From positions 1 to 46,457 of the forward strand of contig JAUNJG010000013.1 of assembly GCA_030533385.1 (NCBI GenBank): DNA of 46,457 nucleotides, read 5' to 3'. The notes below the pieces were generated by a model. The model was not told the DNA's origin. It was given only the letters and a program-made list of their open reading frames with translations, and did not search any database. Below are positions 4,347 through 36,479 of the stretch, in pieces. The translations under genes and the position numbers were made by a program. How positions within the stretch are numbered: the first letter of the stretch is position 1; the number at the start of each line of letters is the position of its first letter. The DNA is from Eubacteriales bacterium (lineage in GTDB: Bacteria > Bacillota > Clostridia > Lachnospirales > Lachnospiraceae).

Positions 4347-4399
4347 AATATAGAAATAAAAACTATATTATGTAGAAAGAAAAACGAAGAGGAGTTGCC

Positions 4400-5299
4400 A
4401 TGGAATATAAGATTATCAGTGACGGATGCTGTGATTTAGAACAGGATATCATTGAGAAGTATCATTTGCATATCATCCCTTTTTATATTTCCTTTGATGA
4501 GGAGAATTATTATAAAGAAATTGAAGAGATAGGCATCCGTGAGGTGTACGACAGAATGGTGGGACAGCCGGATGTTTATCCTAAAACCTCCCTGCCGTCG
4601 GTGCAAAATTATATGGATGCCTTTGTGCATTATGTGGAACAGGGACAGCCGGTGATTTGTATTTGCTTTACGCCTTCGCTGAGCGGCTCCTACAACAGCG
4701 CCTGCAGTGCGAAGAAGATTGTCTGCGAGAAATATCCGGAGGCGAAAATAGCAGTCATCAATTCGGAGGCGGGTACGGTATCCCAGGGGTTGATGGTGAT
4801 CGAGGCGGGAAGGATGCTTCGGGACGGCGTTCCCTACGAGGAATGTGTGGACATATTGGAGCGAATGAAAAAGACGAACCGGATTTTCTTTACCGTGGGA
4901 AATGTGGATTACCTGAAACATGGGGGGCGCATCGGCAAGCTCGCCAGTCTGGCGACCAGCGCACTGTCCTTAAAGCCGCTCATCACCCTTGTGGATGGGG
5001 TCATTGAGGCGTCAGGTATTGGGAGGAGCCGCAGGAAAACGATGCAAAAGACGGTGGAGCTTATGAAAAGACATTTTAAAGAGACGGGAGAATCGCCGGA
5101 AGATTACAGTTTTTCTGTCGGGTTTGGCTATGATGTGGAAGAAGGAAAACATTTTTATGAGACGGTTTCCCGGACGGTGGAGGAGATGGTTCCGGGCAGG
5201 GAAGTCATGCTCATTCAGATAGGAGCGACCATTGCCGTGCACACAGGCCCTCATGCCCTTGGCATCGGTATCATAAAAAAATATGAACATTTTCGGTGA
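4400..5299 (+). CDS. DegV family fatty-acid-binding protein
   Basis: A 299-residue protein. N-terminal IISDGCCDLEQDIIEKYHLHIIPF and the central CFTPSLSGSYNSA and VGNVDYLKHGGRIGKLASL are hallmarks of the DegV family (PF02645). These proteins bind a single fatty acid and, in Gram-positive bacteria, act as FakB-type partners that present fatty acids to the FakA kinase for phospholipid synthesis. No fakA gene is in the window, so the FakB role is an inference from the family. It is preceded by a clear promoter and AAGAGGAGT at its start, and followed by a terminator at 5400-5431, so it is probably monocistronic. Confidence 0.88.
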   Translation: MEYKIISDGCCDLEQDIIEKYHLHIIPFYISFDEENYYKEIEEIGIREVYDRMVGQPDVYPKTSLPSVQNYMDAFVHYVEQGQPVICICFTPSLSGSYNSACSAKKIVCEKYPEAKIAVINSEAGTVSQGLMVIEAGRMLRDGVPYEECVDILERMKKTNRIFFTVGNVDYLKHGGRIGKLASLATSALSLKPLITLVDGVIEASGIGRSRRKTMQKTVELMKRHFKETGESPEDYSFSVGFGYDVEEGKHFYETVSRTVEEMVPGREVMLIQIGATIAVHTGPHALGIGIIKKYEHFR

Positions 5300-5399
5300 C
5301 GATGGGTCTTTGACCATGTGCCGCTGAAAATGGAGAGAAAAAGTGCGGGAAGAAAGCGGGAGAAGGTTCTTGTCACCCTCCTGAACCTGTGATATGATT

Positions 5400-5431
5400 A
5401 GTCGTAGCTAATTTGAGCTGCGGCTTTTTTT
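5400..5431 (+). terminator. Rho-independent terminator after degV-type gene
   Basis: AGTCGTAGCT (5400-5409) pairs along all 10 positions, with G-U pairs, to AGCTGCGGCT (5416-5425). The loop is AATTTG and a T run follows at 5425-5431. Confidence 0.75.
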
Positions 5432-5450
5432 AGGCAGACGGGGAATATCC
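5432..5450 (-). repeat. Dispersed repeat, copy 1
   Basis: AGGCAGACGGGGAATATCC is the reverse complement of the core shared with 36461-36479, 41800-41816 and 46340-46357. It lies between the degV terminator and the methyltransferase gene. Only one arm of the inverted repeat is evident here. Confidence 0.7.
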
Positions 5451-5521
5451 CTAAGTGAGACCGCAGGGGATGTCAAGGGTCATCCCTGTTTACAATTTAC
5501 AGGAAAAAGAGGAATCAATCT

Positions 5522-6382
5522 ATGTGGATAGCAGACCAATGGAAAGAATATGAAGTTATTGATTGCAGCGAGGGAGAAAAGCTGGAACGGTGGGGCAGGT
5601 ATCATCTGCTTCGTCCGGATCCGCAGGTCATCTGGAACACGCCCAGGGAAGACAGGCGGTGGAGAAAGCTAAATGCCCACTATCATCGGAGCAGGCGAGG
5701 CGGCGGCGAGTGGGAATTTTTTGATTTGCCGGAGCAGTGGGATATCCATTACAAAAATCTCACCTTTCATTTGAAGCCTTTTAGCTTCAAACATACCGGA
5801 CTGTTTCCGGAGCAGGCGGTAAACTGGGACTGGTTTTCTGAAAAAATCAGGAATGCGGGCCGTCCGGTGAAGGTGCTGAATCTTTTTGCCTACACGGGAG
5901 GAGCGACTTTGGCGGCGGCGGAGGCGGGAGCTTCCGTGACCCATGTGGATGCCTCCAAGGGCATGGTGACCTGGGCAAAAGAAAATGCGCTGGCCTCCGG
6001 CCTGAAAGAGGCTCCCATCCGATGGCTGGTGGATGACTGCGTGAAATTTGTGGAGAGAGAAATTCGTCGGGGCAATCATTATGACGGCATCATCATGGAT
6101 CCGCCGTCTTATGGCAGAGGCCCGAAGGGAGAGATCTGGAAGATAGAAGAAAAGATTTACTCCCTCGTCTGCCTGTGTGAAAAGCTTCTTTCTGAGAAAC
6201 CGCTGTTTTTCCTGATCAATTCTTATACGACAGGATTGCAGCCGGCGGTGCTTTCTTACATGCTGGGAAGTGCGGTGGCAAAGAAGCATGGAGGTGTTGT
6301 CCGGGCGGAGGAGATTGGGCTGCCCGTATCCTCCAACGGTCTGGTGCTGCCCTGCGGCGCTTCCGGAAGGTGGGAGCGGTGA
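5522..6382 (+). CDS. Class I SAM-dependent methyltransferase, RlmI/RlmK-like
   Basis: A 286-residue protein. Motif I is VLNLFAYTGGATLAAAEAGA (about residues 119-138), the acidic motif II is THVDASKGM, and motif IV is IIMDPPSYGRG (about residues 190-200). DPPSYG is typical of the RlmI-like rRNA cytosine/guanine methyltransferases. The N-terminal PUA domain of full-length RlmI is absent, so the RNA target cannot be named. The stop codon overlaps the start of the next gene in a TGATG arrangement, implying translational coupling. Its leader carries the dispersed repeat. Confidence 0.82.
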   Translation: MWIADQWKEYEVIDCSEGEKLERWGRYHLLRPDPQVIWNTPREDRRWRKLNAHYHRSRRGGGEWEFFDLPEQWDIHYKNLTFHLKPFSFKHTGLFPEQAVNWDWFSEKIRNAGRPVKVLNLFAYTGGATLAAAEAGASVTHVDASKGMVTWAKENALASGLKEAPIRWLVDDCVKFVEREIRRGNHYDGIIMDPPSYGRGPKGEIWKIEEKIYSLVCLCEKLLSEKPLFFLINSYTTGLQPAVLSYMLGSAVAKKHGGVVRAEEIGLPVSSNGLVLPCGASGRWER

Positions 6383-6891
6383 TGAAAACAAGAAAAACGG
6401 CCATGTACGGATTGTTTTTGGCGCTGGCTTTGGTGGCGGCTTATTTGGAGAGACTTCTTCCCGTCAACTTGGGAGTGCCCGGCGTGAAGCTGGGGCTTGC
6501 CAACATCGTGACGATGATTTTGCTCTACACGGTGGGAGTTTCGGGTGCAGTGGGCGTCAGCACAGCCAGGGTGCTGTTGTCGGGCATCTTGTTTCACAAT
6601 GGGTTTGCCATGGTCTATGCGGCGGCGGGGGCGGCTTCCAGTATGCTCGCCATGACGCTGCTGAAAAAGACAAAACGGTTTTCCGAGGTGGGCGTCAGCG
6701 TTGCCGGTGGCGTGTTTCATAACGTGGGACAGATTCTGGTGGCAGCGGTCGTGCTGGAGACCGGCGCTCTGTTTTATTATTTACCGATATTGATTCTGTC
6801 CGGCCTTGGGGCGGGTGTTGCCATCGGTGTTTTGAGTGGAATCCTCATAAGGAGGCTGGAGTCGGTGATTCGCCAGGCCATGGAATCCTAA
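6382..6891 (+). CDS. Gx transporter family membrane protein (EetB / heptaprenyl diphosphate synthase component I-like)
   Basis: A 169-residue hydrophobic protein with about five membrane segments. KTAMYGLFLALALVAAYLERLLPVN and GVPGVKLGLANIVTMILLY match PF07456. That family is annotated as heptaprenyl diphosphate synthase component I or Gx transporter, and I believe it includes EetB of the flavin-based extracellular electron transfer locus of Listeria. It overlaps the upstream methyltransferase stop by one base and is followed by an ApbE flavin transferase gene, a pairing that fits a flavin-linked electron-transfer role. No EetA-type (NusG domain II) gene is present here. The frame is open to a GTG at 6370, but ATG 6382 is better placed. 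Confidence 0.75.
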   Translation: MKTRKTAMYGLFLALALVAAYLERLLPVNLGVPGVKLGLANIVTMILLYTVGVSGAVGVSTARVLLSGILFHNGFAMVYAAAGAASSMLAMTLLKKTKRFSEVGVSVAGGVFHNVGQILVAAVVLETGALFYYLPILILSGLGAGVAIGVLSGILIRRLESVIRQAMES

Positions 6892-7022
6892 GAGGGGGGT
6901 GTCGGCGGAATGTCTGCGCAGCGTCCTTCCTTTAAGAGGAAGAATGTTCACGAAAAAAGACCGCCCTGCGGTGAGCGAAGGCCAGGGGCGGTTCATGTCG
7001 TTTGAGAAGGAAAAGGAAAAAC

Positions 7023-8123
7023 ATGAGAAGAAAAGAGAAGAATAAAAAATGGAAGGTGCTTGCGGCGTGGGGGCTTTTGGTTTTTCTGACCGGGTGTGCT
7101 GGAGGAGGGCTGTCCTCCAAAACGAGGCAGGAACCTGGAAGTTCTACGACAAAGGAAGAACGATTTTCCAAAACAGATTTTGTGATGGATACCGTGCTGC
7201 AAATGACGATTTATGGCCGGACTGATTACAGCGATGAAATCAAAGAGAAGCTGTCTGCGGCGGAGACGGAAGAGTTGTCCTGGAGACAGGCGGACAGCGA
7301 AGTTTTCCTGCTGAATCAAAGATGCAGCGAGGGGGAGACGGTGGAGATGACGGAAGCGTTTTCCGGCTGGGCGGAGGCTTCCCTCTCTCTGGCACAAAAA
7401 AGCGGTGGTGCTTTTGACCCCACCATCGGAAATCTCACCAGACTGTGGGATGTTGAGGGGGAGAACCCGACGGTTCCCGATAAGTCGGAGATTCAGGCCG
7501 TGATGGAGAGTGTCGGTTATGAGGCCATTAATATAGAAGGAGAGCAGCCTCAGGGAGGAAGAAGGCGGATATCCATGAAAGATGGGGTAACTCTCGATCT
7601 GGGGGCGGTAGGAAAGGGAATCGGCTGTGACATAGCCGGAGAGATTCTCGGCGGAAAACGTGATGTGCAGGGCGCCGTCATCGCCGTCGGCGGAAGCATT
7701 CTCACCTACGGAAGCAAGCCCGGCGGGGAACCTTGGAGCGTGGCCATCCGGGACCCTGAGGGTGCGGAGGGAGAGTATGTGGGCGTCATAAAGCTAGAAG
7801 GAAACGCTTTTGTCTCCACCTCCGGTGATTATGAGAAATTTTTCGTGGAGGATGGAAAGAAGTACCATCATATTATGGATCCGTCCACCGGGTATCCGTC
7901 GGAGAGCGATGTAAGCTCCGTAACCGTCGTGTGCGTGCCGGGGAAAACAAAAGGAAAGTACCCGGGGTTGTTATCCGACGGCCTTTCCACCGCCTGCTTT
8001 GTGCTGGGCACCGAGAAAGGAAAAGCACTCCTTGAAGAGTATGGCGCAGAGGGCGTGCTGATTGACAAGGAGAACAATGTGACAGTGACCGACGGCCTTG
8101 CCGGCTCTTTGGAACTGTTTTGA
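7023..8123 (+). CDS. apbE: FAD:protein FMN transferase (ApbE family lipoprotein)
   Basis: Transfers FMN from FAD to threonines of target proteins in the cell envelope. The 366-residue product starts with a lipoprotein signal (basic RRKEKNKKWK, hydrophobic VLAAWGLLVFLTGC, lipobox LTGC). Family motifs follow in order: DFVMDT, GAFDPTIGNLTRLW, DLGAVGKGIGCD, the metal site YHHIMDPSTGYPSES and LSDGLSTACFVLG. The annotated-type TTG at 7002 is in frame; ATG 7023 has AAGGAAAAGGAAA upstream and is preferred. Possible clients in such organisms include Rnf subunits and extracytoplasmic flavoproteins; none is encoded nearby. Confidence 0.9.
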   Translation: MRRKEKNKKWKVLAAWGLLVFLTGCAGGGLSSKTRQEPGSSTTKEERFSKTDFVMDTVLQMTIYGRTDYSDEIKEKLSAAETEELSWRQADSEVFLLNQRCSEGETVEMTEAFSGWAEASLSLAQKSGGAFDPTIGNLTRLWDVEGENPTVPDKSEIQAVMESVGYEAINIEGEQPQGGRRRISMKDGVTLDLGAVGKGIGCDIAGEILGGKRDVQGAVIAVGGSILTYGSKPGGEPWSVAIRDPEGAEGEYVGVIKLEGNAFVSTSGDYEKFFVEDGKKYHHIMDPSTGYPSESDVSSVTVVCVPGKTKGKYPGLLSDGLSTACFVLGTEKGKALLEEYGAEGVLIDKENNVTVTDGLAGSLELF

Positions 8124-33756: not shown

Positions 33757-33779
33757 GGACAGATGGGAAATATCCGAAC
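33757..33779 (-). repeat. Dispersed repeat, degenerate copy 3
   Basis: GGACAGATGGGAAATATCCGAAC resembles the reverse complement of copy 4's right part (about 19 of 23 bases). It lies eight bases after truA. Confidence 0.45.
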
Positions 33780-34494: not shown

Positions 34495-34887
34495 GTGGCT
34501 ACTACAAGATATTACGGAACTGGCAGAAGAAAAAGCAGTGTTGCAAGAGTTTACCTCATGCCTGGTACTGGCAAGGTGACTATCAATAAAAAAGATATGG
34601 ATGATTACTTTGGTTTTGAAACCTTAAAAGTGATCGCTCGTCAGCCGCTGGAGCTGACATCCACAGCAGATAAATTTGATGTTCTGGTCAATGTTCACGG
34701 CGGCGGATACACAGGACAGGCCGGCGCTATCAGACATGGTATCTCCAGAGCCTTGATTGAGGCGGATCCGGAGCTTCGTCCGGTATTAAAGAAAGCCGGA
34801 TTCTTGACTCGTGACCCTCGTATGAAGGAGAGAAAGAAATACGGTCTCAAAAAAGCTCGTAGAGCGCCGCAGTTCTCCAAACGTTAG
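34495..34887 (+). CDS. rpsI: 30S ribosomal protein S9
   Basis: A 130-residue protein with a GTG start after [43 protein letters not shown] and the C-terminal tail [18 protein letters not shown], whose last Arg reaches the P-site tRNA, are standard S9. Its 3' flank with the terminator is duplicated 805 bp downstream. Confidence 0.97.
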
Positions 34888-34960
34888 GCATTTATCTGCG
34901 AACCAAAACGTCTATTGTTTATGTATGAAAACCCACAGACTTCGAGTTTGTGGGTTTTTT
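34888..34960 (+). repeat. 73-bp direct repeat, copy 1 (with rpsI terminator)
   Basis: It matches 35693-35765 at 70 of 73 bases. It contains ACCCACAGAC (34931-34940) pairing over 10 bp with GUUUGUGGGU (34946-34955), then T's: the rpsI terminator. A TATACT hexamer follows each copy at the same distance (34978-34983; 35783-35788). Confidence 0.9.
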
Positions 34961-34961
34961 T
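34931..34961 (+). terminator. Terminator of rplM-rpsI
   Basis: The 10-bp stem ACCCACAGAC/GTTTGTGGGT closes the loop TTCGA and is followed by an uninterrupted T run to 34961. Confidence 0.85.
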
Positions 34962-35023
34962 AATAAGAGTAATGTGGTATACTTGTAATATCCAAGGCAT
35001 GTTTTATGAATGAGGAGGAAGGT

Positions 35024-35287
35024 ATGATGCCGGAAATAGCATTGTTTTATGGGATTAGGGTAACCATGTATTACGATGACCATAATCCGCCGCATTTTCA
35101 TGCAGAATATAATGGAAATCAAGCATTAATAGAAATAGATGCAGCGAGAGTTATAAAGGGGGCACTGCCGTCAAGACAATTAAAGCTAATTTTAGCATGG
35201 TGTGTTTTGCATCAGGATGAATTGATGCAGAACTGGGAATTATCAAAAGACGGAAAGCCAATGAATCGAATTAATCCGTTGGTGTAG
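35024..35287 (+). CDS. DUF4160 domain protein, putative toxin-antitoxin-like component
   Basis: An 87-residue protein. PEIALFYGIRVTMYYDDHNPPHFHAEYNGNQALIEIDAARVIKGALPSRQLKLILAWCVLHQDELMQNWEL fits DUF4160 (PF13711), including the conserved PPHFHA block and the C-terminal W..H..EL..NW. Members are usually paired with a DUF2442 gene, as here (14 nt downstream). The pair has been suggested to be toxin-antitoxin-like, but function is unproven. The start is ATG 35024 or 35027, both just after GAGGAGGAAGG. It lies inside a cassette bounded by 73-bp repeats. Confidence 0.85.
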   Translation: MMPEIALFYGIRVTMYYDDHNPPHFHAEYNGNQALIEIDAARVIKGALPSRQLKLILAWCVLHQDELMQNWELSKDGKPMNRINPLV

Positions 35288-35301
35288 CAGGAGGTGATTA
35301 T

Positions 35302-35577
35302 ATGTTTCCTAAAGTAGTACAGGTGGTACCAACGAAGGAATATTCTGTATATGTGTATTTTGAAGATGGTAAAATCGTGTGTTACGATATGTCTCAAATG
35401 CTTGAAAAAGAAGTGTTTCAACCATTGAAAGATATTGACATTTTTGTAGAGACTTGTACGGTGCTGAATGATACGCTTGCGTGGGACATCGATAAGAACC
35501 GTGATAATACAACATGCTTAGATATTGACCCGTTTGTACTGTATGCATTACCTATGGCAGAGGAGAGAATTGCGTAA
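35302..35577 (+). CDS. DUF2442 domain protein, partner of DUF4160
   Basis: A 91-residue protein. PKVVQVVPTKEYSVYVYFEDGKIVCYDMSQMLEKEVFQPLKD and the C-terminal LAWDIDKNRDNTTCLDIDPFVLYALP match DUF2442 (PF10387). It is read 14 nt after DUF4160 with AGGAGGTGAT before its ATG, so the two are one operon. Which of the pair, if either, is toxic is not known. The following 115 nt to the second 73-bp repeat is non-coding. Confidence 0.85.
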   Translation: MFPKVVQVVPTKEYSVYVYFEDGKIVCYDMSQMLEKEVFQPLKDIDIFVETCTVLNDTLAWDIDKNRDNTTCLDIDPFVLYALPMAEERIA

Positions 35578-35692
35578 TATATGGATTGAAGACAGTATGC
35601 TTAGATATGAATATATATGGGTAACTAACACGTAAATGACAAACAACATAGAAATGGCGTATTTACGGTGCCAGGAATTATGCAAGCGATAA

Positions 35693-35765
35693 GCAGTTAT
35701 CCGCGAACCAAAACGTCTATTGTTTATGTATGAAACCCCACAGACTTCGAGTTTGTGGGTTTTTT
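35693..35765 (+). repeat. 73-bp direct repeat, copy 2
   Basis: Three differences from 34888-34960. The bases just before it (TGCAAGCGATAAG) resemble the rpsI 3' end (TCCAAACGTTAGG) and in that frame read Cys-Lys-Arg-stop against Ser-Lys-Arg-stop, hinting that the homology includes a decayed rpsI tail. It retains a complete terminator (ending 35765). Confidence 0.88.
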
Positions 35766-35847
35766 GTATTTGAATATTGTGTTATACTAAGATTAATAAA
35801 TCTATCGTGCAAGGGAGGTTTTGCATCAAATGGGGGAGTTCATGCAA

Positions 35848-36312
35848 ATGAATAAGCTTGAGAAAATAGAAATTACAAAACAGGCGAAGGAAAGATTAGT
35901 AGAACGCGGAATAAAAATAGACGATGTAATTCATTGTACTGATACGGGGGAGATAAAAAAATTAGATTTCGATTTTTCGATATGTAAGGTGAAAGATTAT
36001 TCCATGATTGATCTGGAGAAGGAGTACTGTTTTACGGGAACCACCGATGAGGAAAAATCTTTGGTATGTATAACCGAAGATGTGCCGAAAAATGTGGTGG
36101 AACGTGATGACGGCTGGAAAGCCTTTCGGATAGAAGGAGTATTGGATTTTTCTCTTGTGGGAATTTTATCCCGGATTTCTACCCTGCTGGCGGAGCAGAA
36201 GATACCGGTGTTTGCCATATCTACCTTTAACACAGATTATATTCTGACAAAAAAAGAAAATTATGGGCGGGCTCTGGATGTTTTGAGAGAAAACGGATAT
36301 CTCATCAGATAA
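35848..36312 (+). CDS. ACT-domain protein with a DUF4258-like N-terminal extension (apparent fusion)
   Basis: A 154-residue protein from ATG 35848, nine bases after GGGGGAG; starts at 35821 (TTG), 35830 and 35842 are alternatives. Residues about 37-154 (DFDFSICKVKDYSMIDLEKEYCFTG ... DGWKAFRIEGVLDFSLVGILSRISTLLAEQKIPVFAISTFNTDYILTKK) match the ACT_7-type stand-alone ACT proteins, which probably sense small ligands. Residues 5-35 (EKIEITKQAKERLVERGIKIDDVIHCTDTGEI) are not normally part of that family. They resemble the start of DUF4258 proteins, often found near toxin-antitoxin genes. The join lies close to the second 73-bp repeat. Confidence 0.7.
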   Translation: MNKLEKIEITKQAKERLVERGIKIDDVIHCTDTGEIKKLDFDFSICKVKDYSMIDLEKEYCFTGTTDEEKSLVCITEDVPKNVVERDDGWKAFRIEGVLDFSLVGILSRISTLLAEQKIPVFAISTFNTDYILTKKENYGRALDVLRENGYLIR

Positions 36313-36427: not shown

Positions 36428-36479
36428 AGACAGGGAATATCTGCCCGCTCAGGCGTGTTCGGATATTCCCCGTCTGTCT
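36428..36479 (+). repeat. Dispersed repeat, copy 4 (longest)
   Basis: AGACAGGGAATATC on the left is an imperfect inverted copy of GATATTCCCCGTCTGTCT on the right (36462-36479). The middle contains AGGCGTGTTCGGAT shared with copy 2. It ends 23 bases before the Ogt-type gene. Confidence 0.7.

Follow-up and report, generated by a model that had tools for sequence, protein, structure and literature searches.

What kind of DNA lies between two nearly identical terminators behind rpsI, and how was it brought there? The window (the whole stretch of DNA analysed, 46,457 nucleotides) comes from a gut bacterium of the Lachnospiraceae in which the DNA behind rpsI, an essential ribosomal gene, holds two small toxin-antitoxin packages in tandem. 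A previous reading, made from the sequence alone (the sequence-only reading), had proposed the insertion of a small gene cassette at the 3' end of rpsI. That outline stands, as does the terminator adjoining rpsI, while both the anatomy and the mechanism needed revision. We consider it probable (roughly 0.6) that the locus is an array of two small toxin-antitoxin cassettes at the attachment site of rpsI phages, moved by a phage integrase. The packages are bordered by the sequence of the phage landing site, which suggests that such packages collect where viruses land.

The repeat that drew attention to the locus consists of two 73-bp copies, identical at 70 of 73 positions and spaced 805 bp apart, as had been described; compared with 20 base-shuffled versions of the 3.5-kb region, the same 73-mer gave top matches of just 31-37 of 73. 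Similarity between the copies reaches around 111 nt at 86% identity. The claims that a TATACT hexamer lies equally far from each copy, and that the DUF4160 and DUF2442 genes are the only ones between them, were confirmed as well (Table 1). A whole-genome search found no copies of the repeat in the window's genome beyond these two, so that it is not an ordinary genome-wide terminator. The proposed search for the repeat elsewhere covered 99 genomes (the window's own and 98 relatives, 23 of them congeners), and the other matches were limited to pieces of 35 nt in G038 and 28 nt in G093. The rplM-rpsI region is flanked by a pair of intergenic 22-nt inverted repeats, 91% complementary, at 33758-33779 and 36457-36478.

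Table 1. Features of the rpsI locus and of the array behind it, in coordinates of the window.
Feature	Position	Strand	Basis and remarks
rpsI (ribosomal protein S9)	34495..34887	+	130 codons and stop; PF00380, E 3.2e-52
rpsI 3' end CAGTTCTCCAAACGTTAG, putative attB side of the array	34870..34887	+	core-like sequence, also present in the right ends of elements and in phage attP
Copy 1, left end of cassette 1, terminator CCCACAGAC-GTTTGTGGG-T run	34888..34960	+	repeat comparison and cross-genus alignments
TATACT, promoter -10-like	34978..34983	+	aligned cassettes of other genera keep TATACT with TGTG before it
DUF4160 gene, DhiT-like toxin, intact	35006..35287	+	PF13711, E 9.9e-26; likely start 35024 or 35027
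DUF2442 gene, DhiA-like antitoxin, intact	35302..35577	+	PF10387, E 3.7e-8, 33.9 bits, cut-off 23.9
Arm-type direct repeats GTAACTAAC-ACGTAAATGACAAA	35621..35643	+	right-end alignment; within R1 match 35618-35692, 64.1 bits (training row, not independent)
Right attachment core GGAATTATGCAAGCGATAA	35674..35692	+	other cassettes (in their right ends) and phage attP have it at the same position
Copy 2, left end of cassette 2, terminator	35693..35765	+	R2; collinear with the DUF4258 cassette of G146
TATACT, promoter -10-like, of cassette 2	35783..35788	+	sequence; alignment with G146
Truncated DUF4258 gene, N-terminal part only	35848..35949	+	74% identity to residues 1-38 of the G146 DUF4258 protein
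ACT-domain gene, in-frame partner of cassette 2	35950..36312	+	ACT_7, E 2e-18; whole frame 35821-36312

Judged from these features, the segment is cassette 1 of a two-cassette array, with a core resembling the rpsI end at its right. A complete cassette is predicted to consist of a core, a terminator with promoter, toxin-antitoxin genes, arm-type direct repeats, a spacer and again a core; in cassette 1 the direct repeats are GTAACTAACACGTAAATGAC, downstream of DUF4160/DUF2442. The promoter-like sites that putatively drive the cassettes are read from the conserved TATACT and TGTG. Between the ends found in the window there are genes of toxin-antitoxin type only, and none for integration or transfer.

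The two genes of cassette 1 were recognized by Pfam, the DUF4160 product with 90.2 bits (cut-off 23) and the DUF2442 product above its own cut-off, with the toxin gene first. The NCBIfam DhiT equivalog model gave 81.2 bits, below its curated cut-off of 100, and the pair was therefore filed as DUF4160/DUF2442 and not as a DhiT equivalog. The same two domains form dhiTA of Dickeya dadantii, an experimentally tested toxin-antitoxin system (PMC8198452), and a table in PMC12654330 includes a DUF4160/DUF2442 pair. The domain pair and the toxin-first order are common to DhiTA and the window, whereas the window genes do not overlap, their toxin stays under the DhiT cut-off, and the window cassette has an attachment site, a feature not mentioned for DhiTA in the available part of that report (PMC8198452). 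The window pair probably works like DhiTA, and its toxin would be active in this host.

The state of the pair was compared among nine rpsI-linked copies, that of G431 being linked by its contig ends; copies too decayed or cut by contig ends (L030, G444, G262, G376 and G398) were left out. DUF2442 was full length and free of stops in all nine, whereas DUF4160 was complete and stop-free in three (the window, G431 and G429), and the other six had either a stop (three) or no N-terminal part (three). That the toxin is lost while the antitoxin is kept fits a toxin-antitoxin pair. Outside the nine, DUF2442 has decayed too in L030 and G444, where, as in G262 and G376, decayed remnants are present. Pairwise dN/dS of DUF2442 was about 0.04-0.17 where it could be computed, a rough figure because synonymous sites are near saturation; dN/dS pairs with the G429 DUF4160 copy were excluded, as that pair was misaligned. 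In a DUF2442 tree of 22 rows (two of 24, with less than 70 residues, were dropped) the rpsI-linked copies cluster, none of 500 shuffles giving as low a value. They form one group in just 27% of the bootstrap trees, and the tree does not single out one origin for these copies.

Copy 2 had been taken for a simple target-end duplication, and this did not hold. From the terminator into the gene, the DNA from copy 2 onward aligns with the DUF4258/YgiT cassette of G146, and the two diverge near 35950. This collinearity with an intact DUF4258 cassette of another genus rules out a plain duplicate of the rpsI end and makes copy 2 the left end of a second cassette, which extends to around 35950, past the end of the segment first described. 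The frame that follows encodes a 163-residue ACT fusion protein, in which 18 of 20 other homologue matches start at residues 36-47 (the others at 5 and 114), and whose DUF4258 match lies just below the Pfam cut-off (24.6 against 25 bits). Cassette 2 is, on our reading, a DUF4258 cassette that was truncated and now continues in frame into the ACT gene; a deletion may have cut it and joined it to this gene. The C-K-R-stop before copy 2 is indeed present, at 35681-35692, although the end of an attachment-site core is a better reading of it than a decayed rpsI tail. Elsewhere in its genome (C100) the window's bacterium encodes another ACT homologue, which has no DUF4258 part.

Seven right ends from seven genera (the window, G146, G038, L025, G240, G269 and G323) could be aligned as arms, spacer and core. 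The direct-repeat pattern has nine matches in six of 299 family genomes. Eight of these follow rpsI or an rpsI tail; the remaining one, in G240, lies apart from rpsI, inside an apparent histidine-kinase frame. The reversed pattern had no match in the 299 genomes. A sequence model of the right end built from the seven aligned rows (R1) was run on 397 genomes, and matched 17 places in 16 genomes at E <= 2e-5, six of them training rows and 11 new. Eight of the 11 (G429, G249, G383, G323, G363, G245, G334 and G200) share contig and strand with rpsI or an rpsI tail and lie 0.7 to 39.9 kb downstream of it. For the other three (G431, G398 and G256), rpsI is on another contig, less than 150 nt from that contig's end, and the right end is within 1 kb of the end of its own contig. 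The next matches below the line, in G311 (3.2e-5) and G323 (1.3e-4), are likewise in these arrays. R1 matches up to E 0.05 occur in 80 of the 397 genomes, and the weaker ones were mostly not followed; the E-value lines for R1 and for the left-end model R2 (2e-9) were set after the lists had been seen. In a further set of named rpsI loci, the best 80 of a longer list, R1 matched at E < 1e-4 in L025 (a training row), L066, L068 and L042 (two places). Since only the best 80 were covered and many of them end soon after rpsI, counts from the named loci are lower bounds. The same search gave no R1 right end in 10 congener loci.

The left end was modelled as terminator plus promoter (R2), a model that matches the window at 34919-34987. 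At E <= 2e-9 it matched 14 places in the 397 genomes, six training rows and eight new ones, and all eight (G400, G429, G262, G376, G444, G135, G371 and G398) are behind rpsI or an rpsI tail; matches up to E 0.01 occur in 76 genomes, the weaker ones mostly not followed. In G135 and G371 the terminator sits behind rpsI and our queries found no cassette gene, which argues that the left end is not cassette-specific. Weaker matches in G060, G237 and G367 give a similar picture, with the terminator behind rpsI and no cassette gene found. The terminator is probably of a native rpsI type that these cassettes carry; the terminators of ToxN, CptN or zeta cassettes are of other kinds. Left arms are absent from the window, where a single arm site was found at E <= 1, whereas phage left arms do score in the same search. 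Because the window cassettes are without them, a circle formed by a single cassette might be an incomplete substrate.

The distribution of the pair at rpsI was then considered. Within the genus, a complete or partial rpsI was found in 21 of 24 genomes, including the window's own. In the 19 congener rpsI loci examined, of which 17 reach more than a few bases past the gene (G002, a partial match, was left out; two loci end a few bases past rpsI and G022 about 80), no pair was seen behind rpsI, and the DNA there varies among these species. According to the sequence-only reading, an insertion would be contradicted by repeats and pair in all relatives, or by a terminator spread over the genome. Neither is the case, since the pair is patchy in the genus and the repeat is no genome-wide terminator. 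In other genera the pair is directly behind rpsI. DUF2442 matches were found in 28 of 299 family genomes, and rpsI was seen in five of the 28 (the window, G146, G038, G269 and G314), with the loci viewed over about 1.5 kb per side; L025 and L030 also carry the pair behind rpsI. Four more cases (G400, G444, G262 and G376), some of them remnants only, emerged from the left-end search. In G146, a terminator and a promoter behind rpsI lead into DUF4258 and a zinc-finger gene of YgiT type; direct repeats and a core similar to the rpsI end come next, and then DUF4160/DUF2442, preceded by a second terminator and promoter. The order of the cassettes is thus swapped, with DUF4258 before DUF4160/DUF2442 in G146 and the reverse in the window. 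A congener, G018 (L107/L131, C56), has a DUF4160/DUF2442 pair, with 63% identity in DUF2442, at a place where rpsI was not seen. The congener G006 (L126) has the last bases of rpsI a second time, 84 bp further on, and no gene separates the two copies; this may be a scar or a minimal insertion.

The same right end is found with different cargo in other Lachnospiraceae, DUF4258/YgiT, CptN, zeta and ToxN being present singly or paired behind rpsI. Some of these cargo families are known for anti-phage action. L042 has CptN followed by a zeta toxin and L066 a ToxN cassette; by eye, a zeta toxin was recognized in G249, a broken ToxN-like frame in G323, and in G269 a CptN-like gene that a decayed repeat separates from the pair following it. 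At a guess, very short frames in G311, G240 and G323 might encode type I toxins; NCBIfam gave a single match on them, far below the cut-off. An Rfam search of six loci for type III antitoxin RNAs yielded just an unrelated T-box. In G200 (L274, C33), the 5.8-kb insert at rpsI has genes for a type I methylase, specificity and Abi_2, with a HicB-like frame near its right end, and HicA/HicB are just inside the right end of the integrase-bearing prophage of G383.

Which recombinase could act on these ends? The sequence-only reading saw no recombinase, and none is encoded at the locus, i.e. there is no integrase gene between rpsI and the ACT gene in the window; for the mechanism it left without explanation, a candidate can now be named by association, the tyrosine integrase of phages whose target is the rpsI 3' end. 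The window's genome encodes two PF00589 tyrosine recombinases, both on other contigs, one of them a 36% relative of the L175 integrase. On sequence grounds, there are two groups of integrases that use the rpsI 3' end, those of ICE-like elements and a phage type (the L175 group). In G311, 61.6 kb separate the intact rpsI from an 18-codon rpsI tail, which immediately follows two tyrosine integrase genes; relatives of this ICE-type integrase lie ahead of an rpsI tail in G429 and G334. The left end of the ICE-type element has different repeats, as judged by eye, and the ICE-type integrase was thus not supported as the owner of the cassette arms, which go with the L175-type group. The ICE-like spans, from the intact rpsI to the second tail, cover approximately 55-62 kb in G311 (C2:205543-267546; L177, L223-L226) and G429 (C88:38028-93380; L258, L277), and in both the tail is preceded by a tyrosine integrase gene pair; a ParA-type gene is at the left end in G311. 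ICE-like left ends are also present behind rpsI in the congeners G020 and G022, and behind the cassette in L025.

In the L175 phage contig the integrase gene ends at GTAACTAACACGTAACTAACAAA, and its own target is probably not rpsI, since a tRNA-like sequence is nearby. Full-length integrases of this group were found behind rpsI in G383 and G245 and behind an rpsI tail in G334, in prophages whose right end is 35-40 kb further on, with endolysin-type genes before it. Truncated ones are present in the half-decayed elements of G363 and G323. A tyrosine recombinase regular expression had no match behind rpsI in 123 loci and was too strict, because protein comparison then found an L175-type integrase or a fragment of it behind rpsI in at least six of the best 80 named loci. 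When viral contigs were scanned with the G383 integrase, eight relatives were obtained. One of them, L332, has a joined attP, consisting of the last phage gene, right arms, spacer, core, terminator, left arms and integrase, and L333 resembles it with diverged arms. In L331, L336 and L338, rpsI is joined to the phage left end, and L334, L335 and L337 extend no further than the integrase. Over the same 75 positions, R1 gave 64.1 bits for the window, a training row and hence not an independent score, and 42.6 bits for L332, which was not a training row. In its arms and core, the cassette right end thus corresponds to one half of attP in temperate phages with the rpsI 3' end as their target. Rpsl-site phages (L332, G383, G245) and window cassettes have right arms, spacer, core and target in common, and differ in that the cassettes are without integrase, left arms and phage genes. 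A DUF2442 scan of the viral contigs had no match, so that carriage of DUF4160/DUF2442 by a phage was not seen.

Beyond the anatomy of the cassettes, the right end they have in common, the attP of the phages, phage use of the rpsI 3' end and the differing order of the arrays, all of which can be read in the sequences compared, we infer that the cassettes move, by a cis or a trans route. A phage integrase would move them, most likely in cis and possibly in trans. In the cis route, a phage integrating at rpsI would place its own right end before the cassette; if the phage then excised with the distal right end of the cassette as attR, the cassette would go with it, and a subsequent excision through the phage's own attR would leave a bare cassette behind rpsI. 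This route, if correct, explains why right arms are present without left arms. Because rpsI is essential, the insertion site must stay functional, and every insertion would rebuild the rpsI 3' end with a terminator behind it. The toxin-antitoxin function, as addiction and/or as anti-phage defence, may help to retain the cassette. More tentatively, and with the odds somewhat against it, the rpsI 3' end of the Lachnospiraceae could be an integron-like store in which integrase-less cassettes with a phage half-attachment site, moved by the integrases of phages of that site, pile up and fill a phage landing site with growth-arrest modules.

The main rival to transport of cassettes by a phage integrase is independent prophage decay, i.e. 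repeated integration of prophages at rpsI followed by separate deletions, with the toxin-antitoxin genes next to the right end surviving as an immobile, CIME-like leftover. HicA/HicB inside the G383 prophage end and the truncated integrases of G363 and G323 speak in its favour, as do the CIME decay and accretion at rpsI known in streptococci (PMC5357655, PMC5704250). However, cassettes with different cargo and from different genera have one and the same left junction, terminator plus promoter without phage left arms, and this counts against prophage remnants because independent deletions should leave varied left edges; neither was DUF4160/DUF2442 found in a phage, as judged from the DUF2442 scan. 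We regard this origin as rather unlikely.

Models without site-specific recombination fare worse. Homologous exchange of rpsI-end fragments, or a tandem duplication of the tail that brought the genes, is conceivable because the window copies are near-identical over 73 nt and similar over 111 nt and because the terminator type occurs behind rpsI without cassettes, yet it leaves unexplained a short core with arms at a fixed distance that is common to phage attP; outside the window, moreover, the likeness of cassettes to rpsI covers just 15-20 nt or so, at the core. We consider it improbable. Hardly any weight is left for an ancestral pair inherited vertically behind rpsI and lost by most lineages: its presence there in several genera, with many copies decaying, would agree with such a history, but within the genus only the window has it among the rpsI loci examined, and cargo, order and neighbours vary at the same site.

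If transport by a phage integrase is correct, toxin-antitoxin and defence genes would spread as bare cassettes through a phage recombination system, and the question of why toxin-antitoxin modules gather at the ends of phages and islands would become testable. The succession of arms, spacer and core offers a searchable signature for such arrays.

Several of these components are already known from the literature, namely the rpsI site, tandem accretion, and CIMEs or decayed islands (PMC5357655, PMC5090054, PMC5341023, PMC7487436, PMC5704250, PMC12904643). Mobile elements at the rpsI 3' end include streptococcal IMEs and ICEs (IMESag-rpsI), the McRImecD islands of Macrococcus, a group B Streptococcus prophage and ICE_RhoA2-183_rpsI of Roseburia (PMC5090054, PMC5357655, PMC5341023, PMC7487436, PMC12904643). 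As far as described there, they resemble the elements reported here in target, tyrosine integrases, direct repeats of the rpsI end and tandem accretion, and IMESag-rpsI carries a toxin-antitoxin system, as the window cassettes do. In contrast, they measure 9.5-18 kb and have an integrase, whereas the window cassettes are about 0.8 kb long and contain toxin-antitoxin genes only. CIMEs are described as decayed ICEs or IMEs that keep attL and attR and can be mobilized in cis (PMC5704250). Like them, the window cassettes are without integrase and transfer genes, have attachment-type ends and lie in tandem at one site; they differ from the CIMEs of that source in their phage-like right end, and in that units with unchanged boundaries and varying cargo are found in several genera. 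With respect to CIME-type ends, the window has a right end with arms and core and, on the rpsI side, a core without arms; no ICE or IME genes are left beside its phage-like right end. Arrays of integrase-less toxin-antitoxin cassettes with phage half-sites at rpsI were not found among the open literature matches listed.

Integron gene cassettes form large arrays rich in toxin-antitoxin modules. They share with the window small tandem cassettes at one site, each ending in a recombination-type site, whereas the window cassettes each have a promoter-like site and a terminator, end in phage half-attachment sites and have no adjoining integrase.

Other genes and insertions were also observed behind rpsI. 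In L050 and L054, serine-recombinase-like genes recognized by regular expression and by eye are located 0.1-1.9 kb behind rpsI, on the minus strand. In L031 (Lachnoanaerobaculum sp. ICM7), 2.66 kb with a Schlafen/AlbA_2-type gene (4393-7060) separate two rpsI tails, and this stretch also has a fragment related to the ICE-type integrase.
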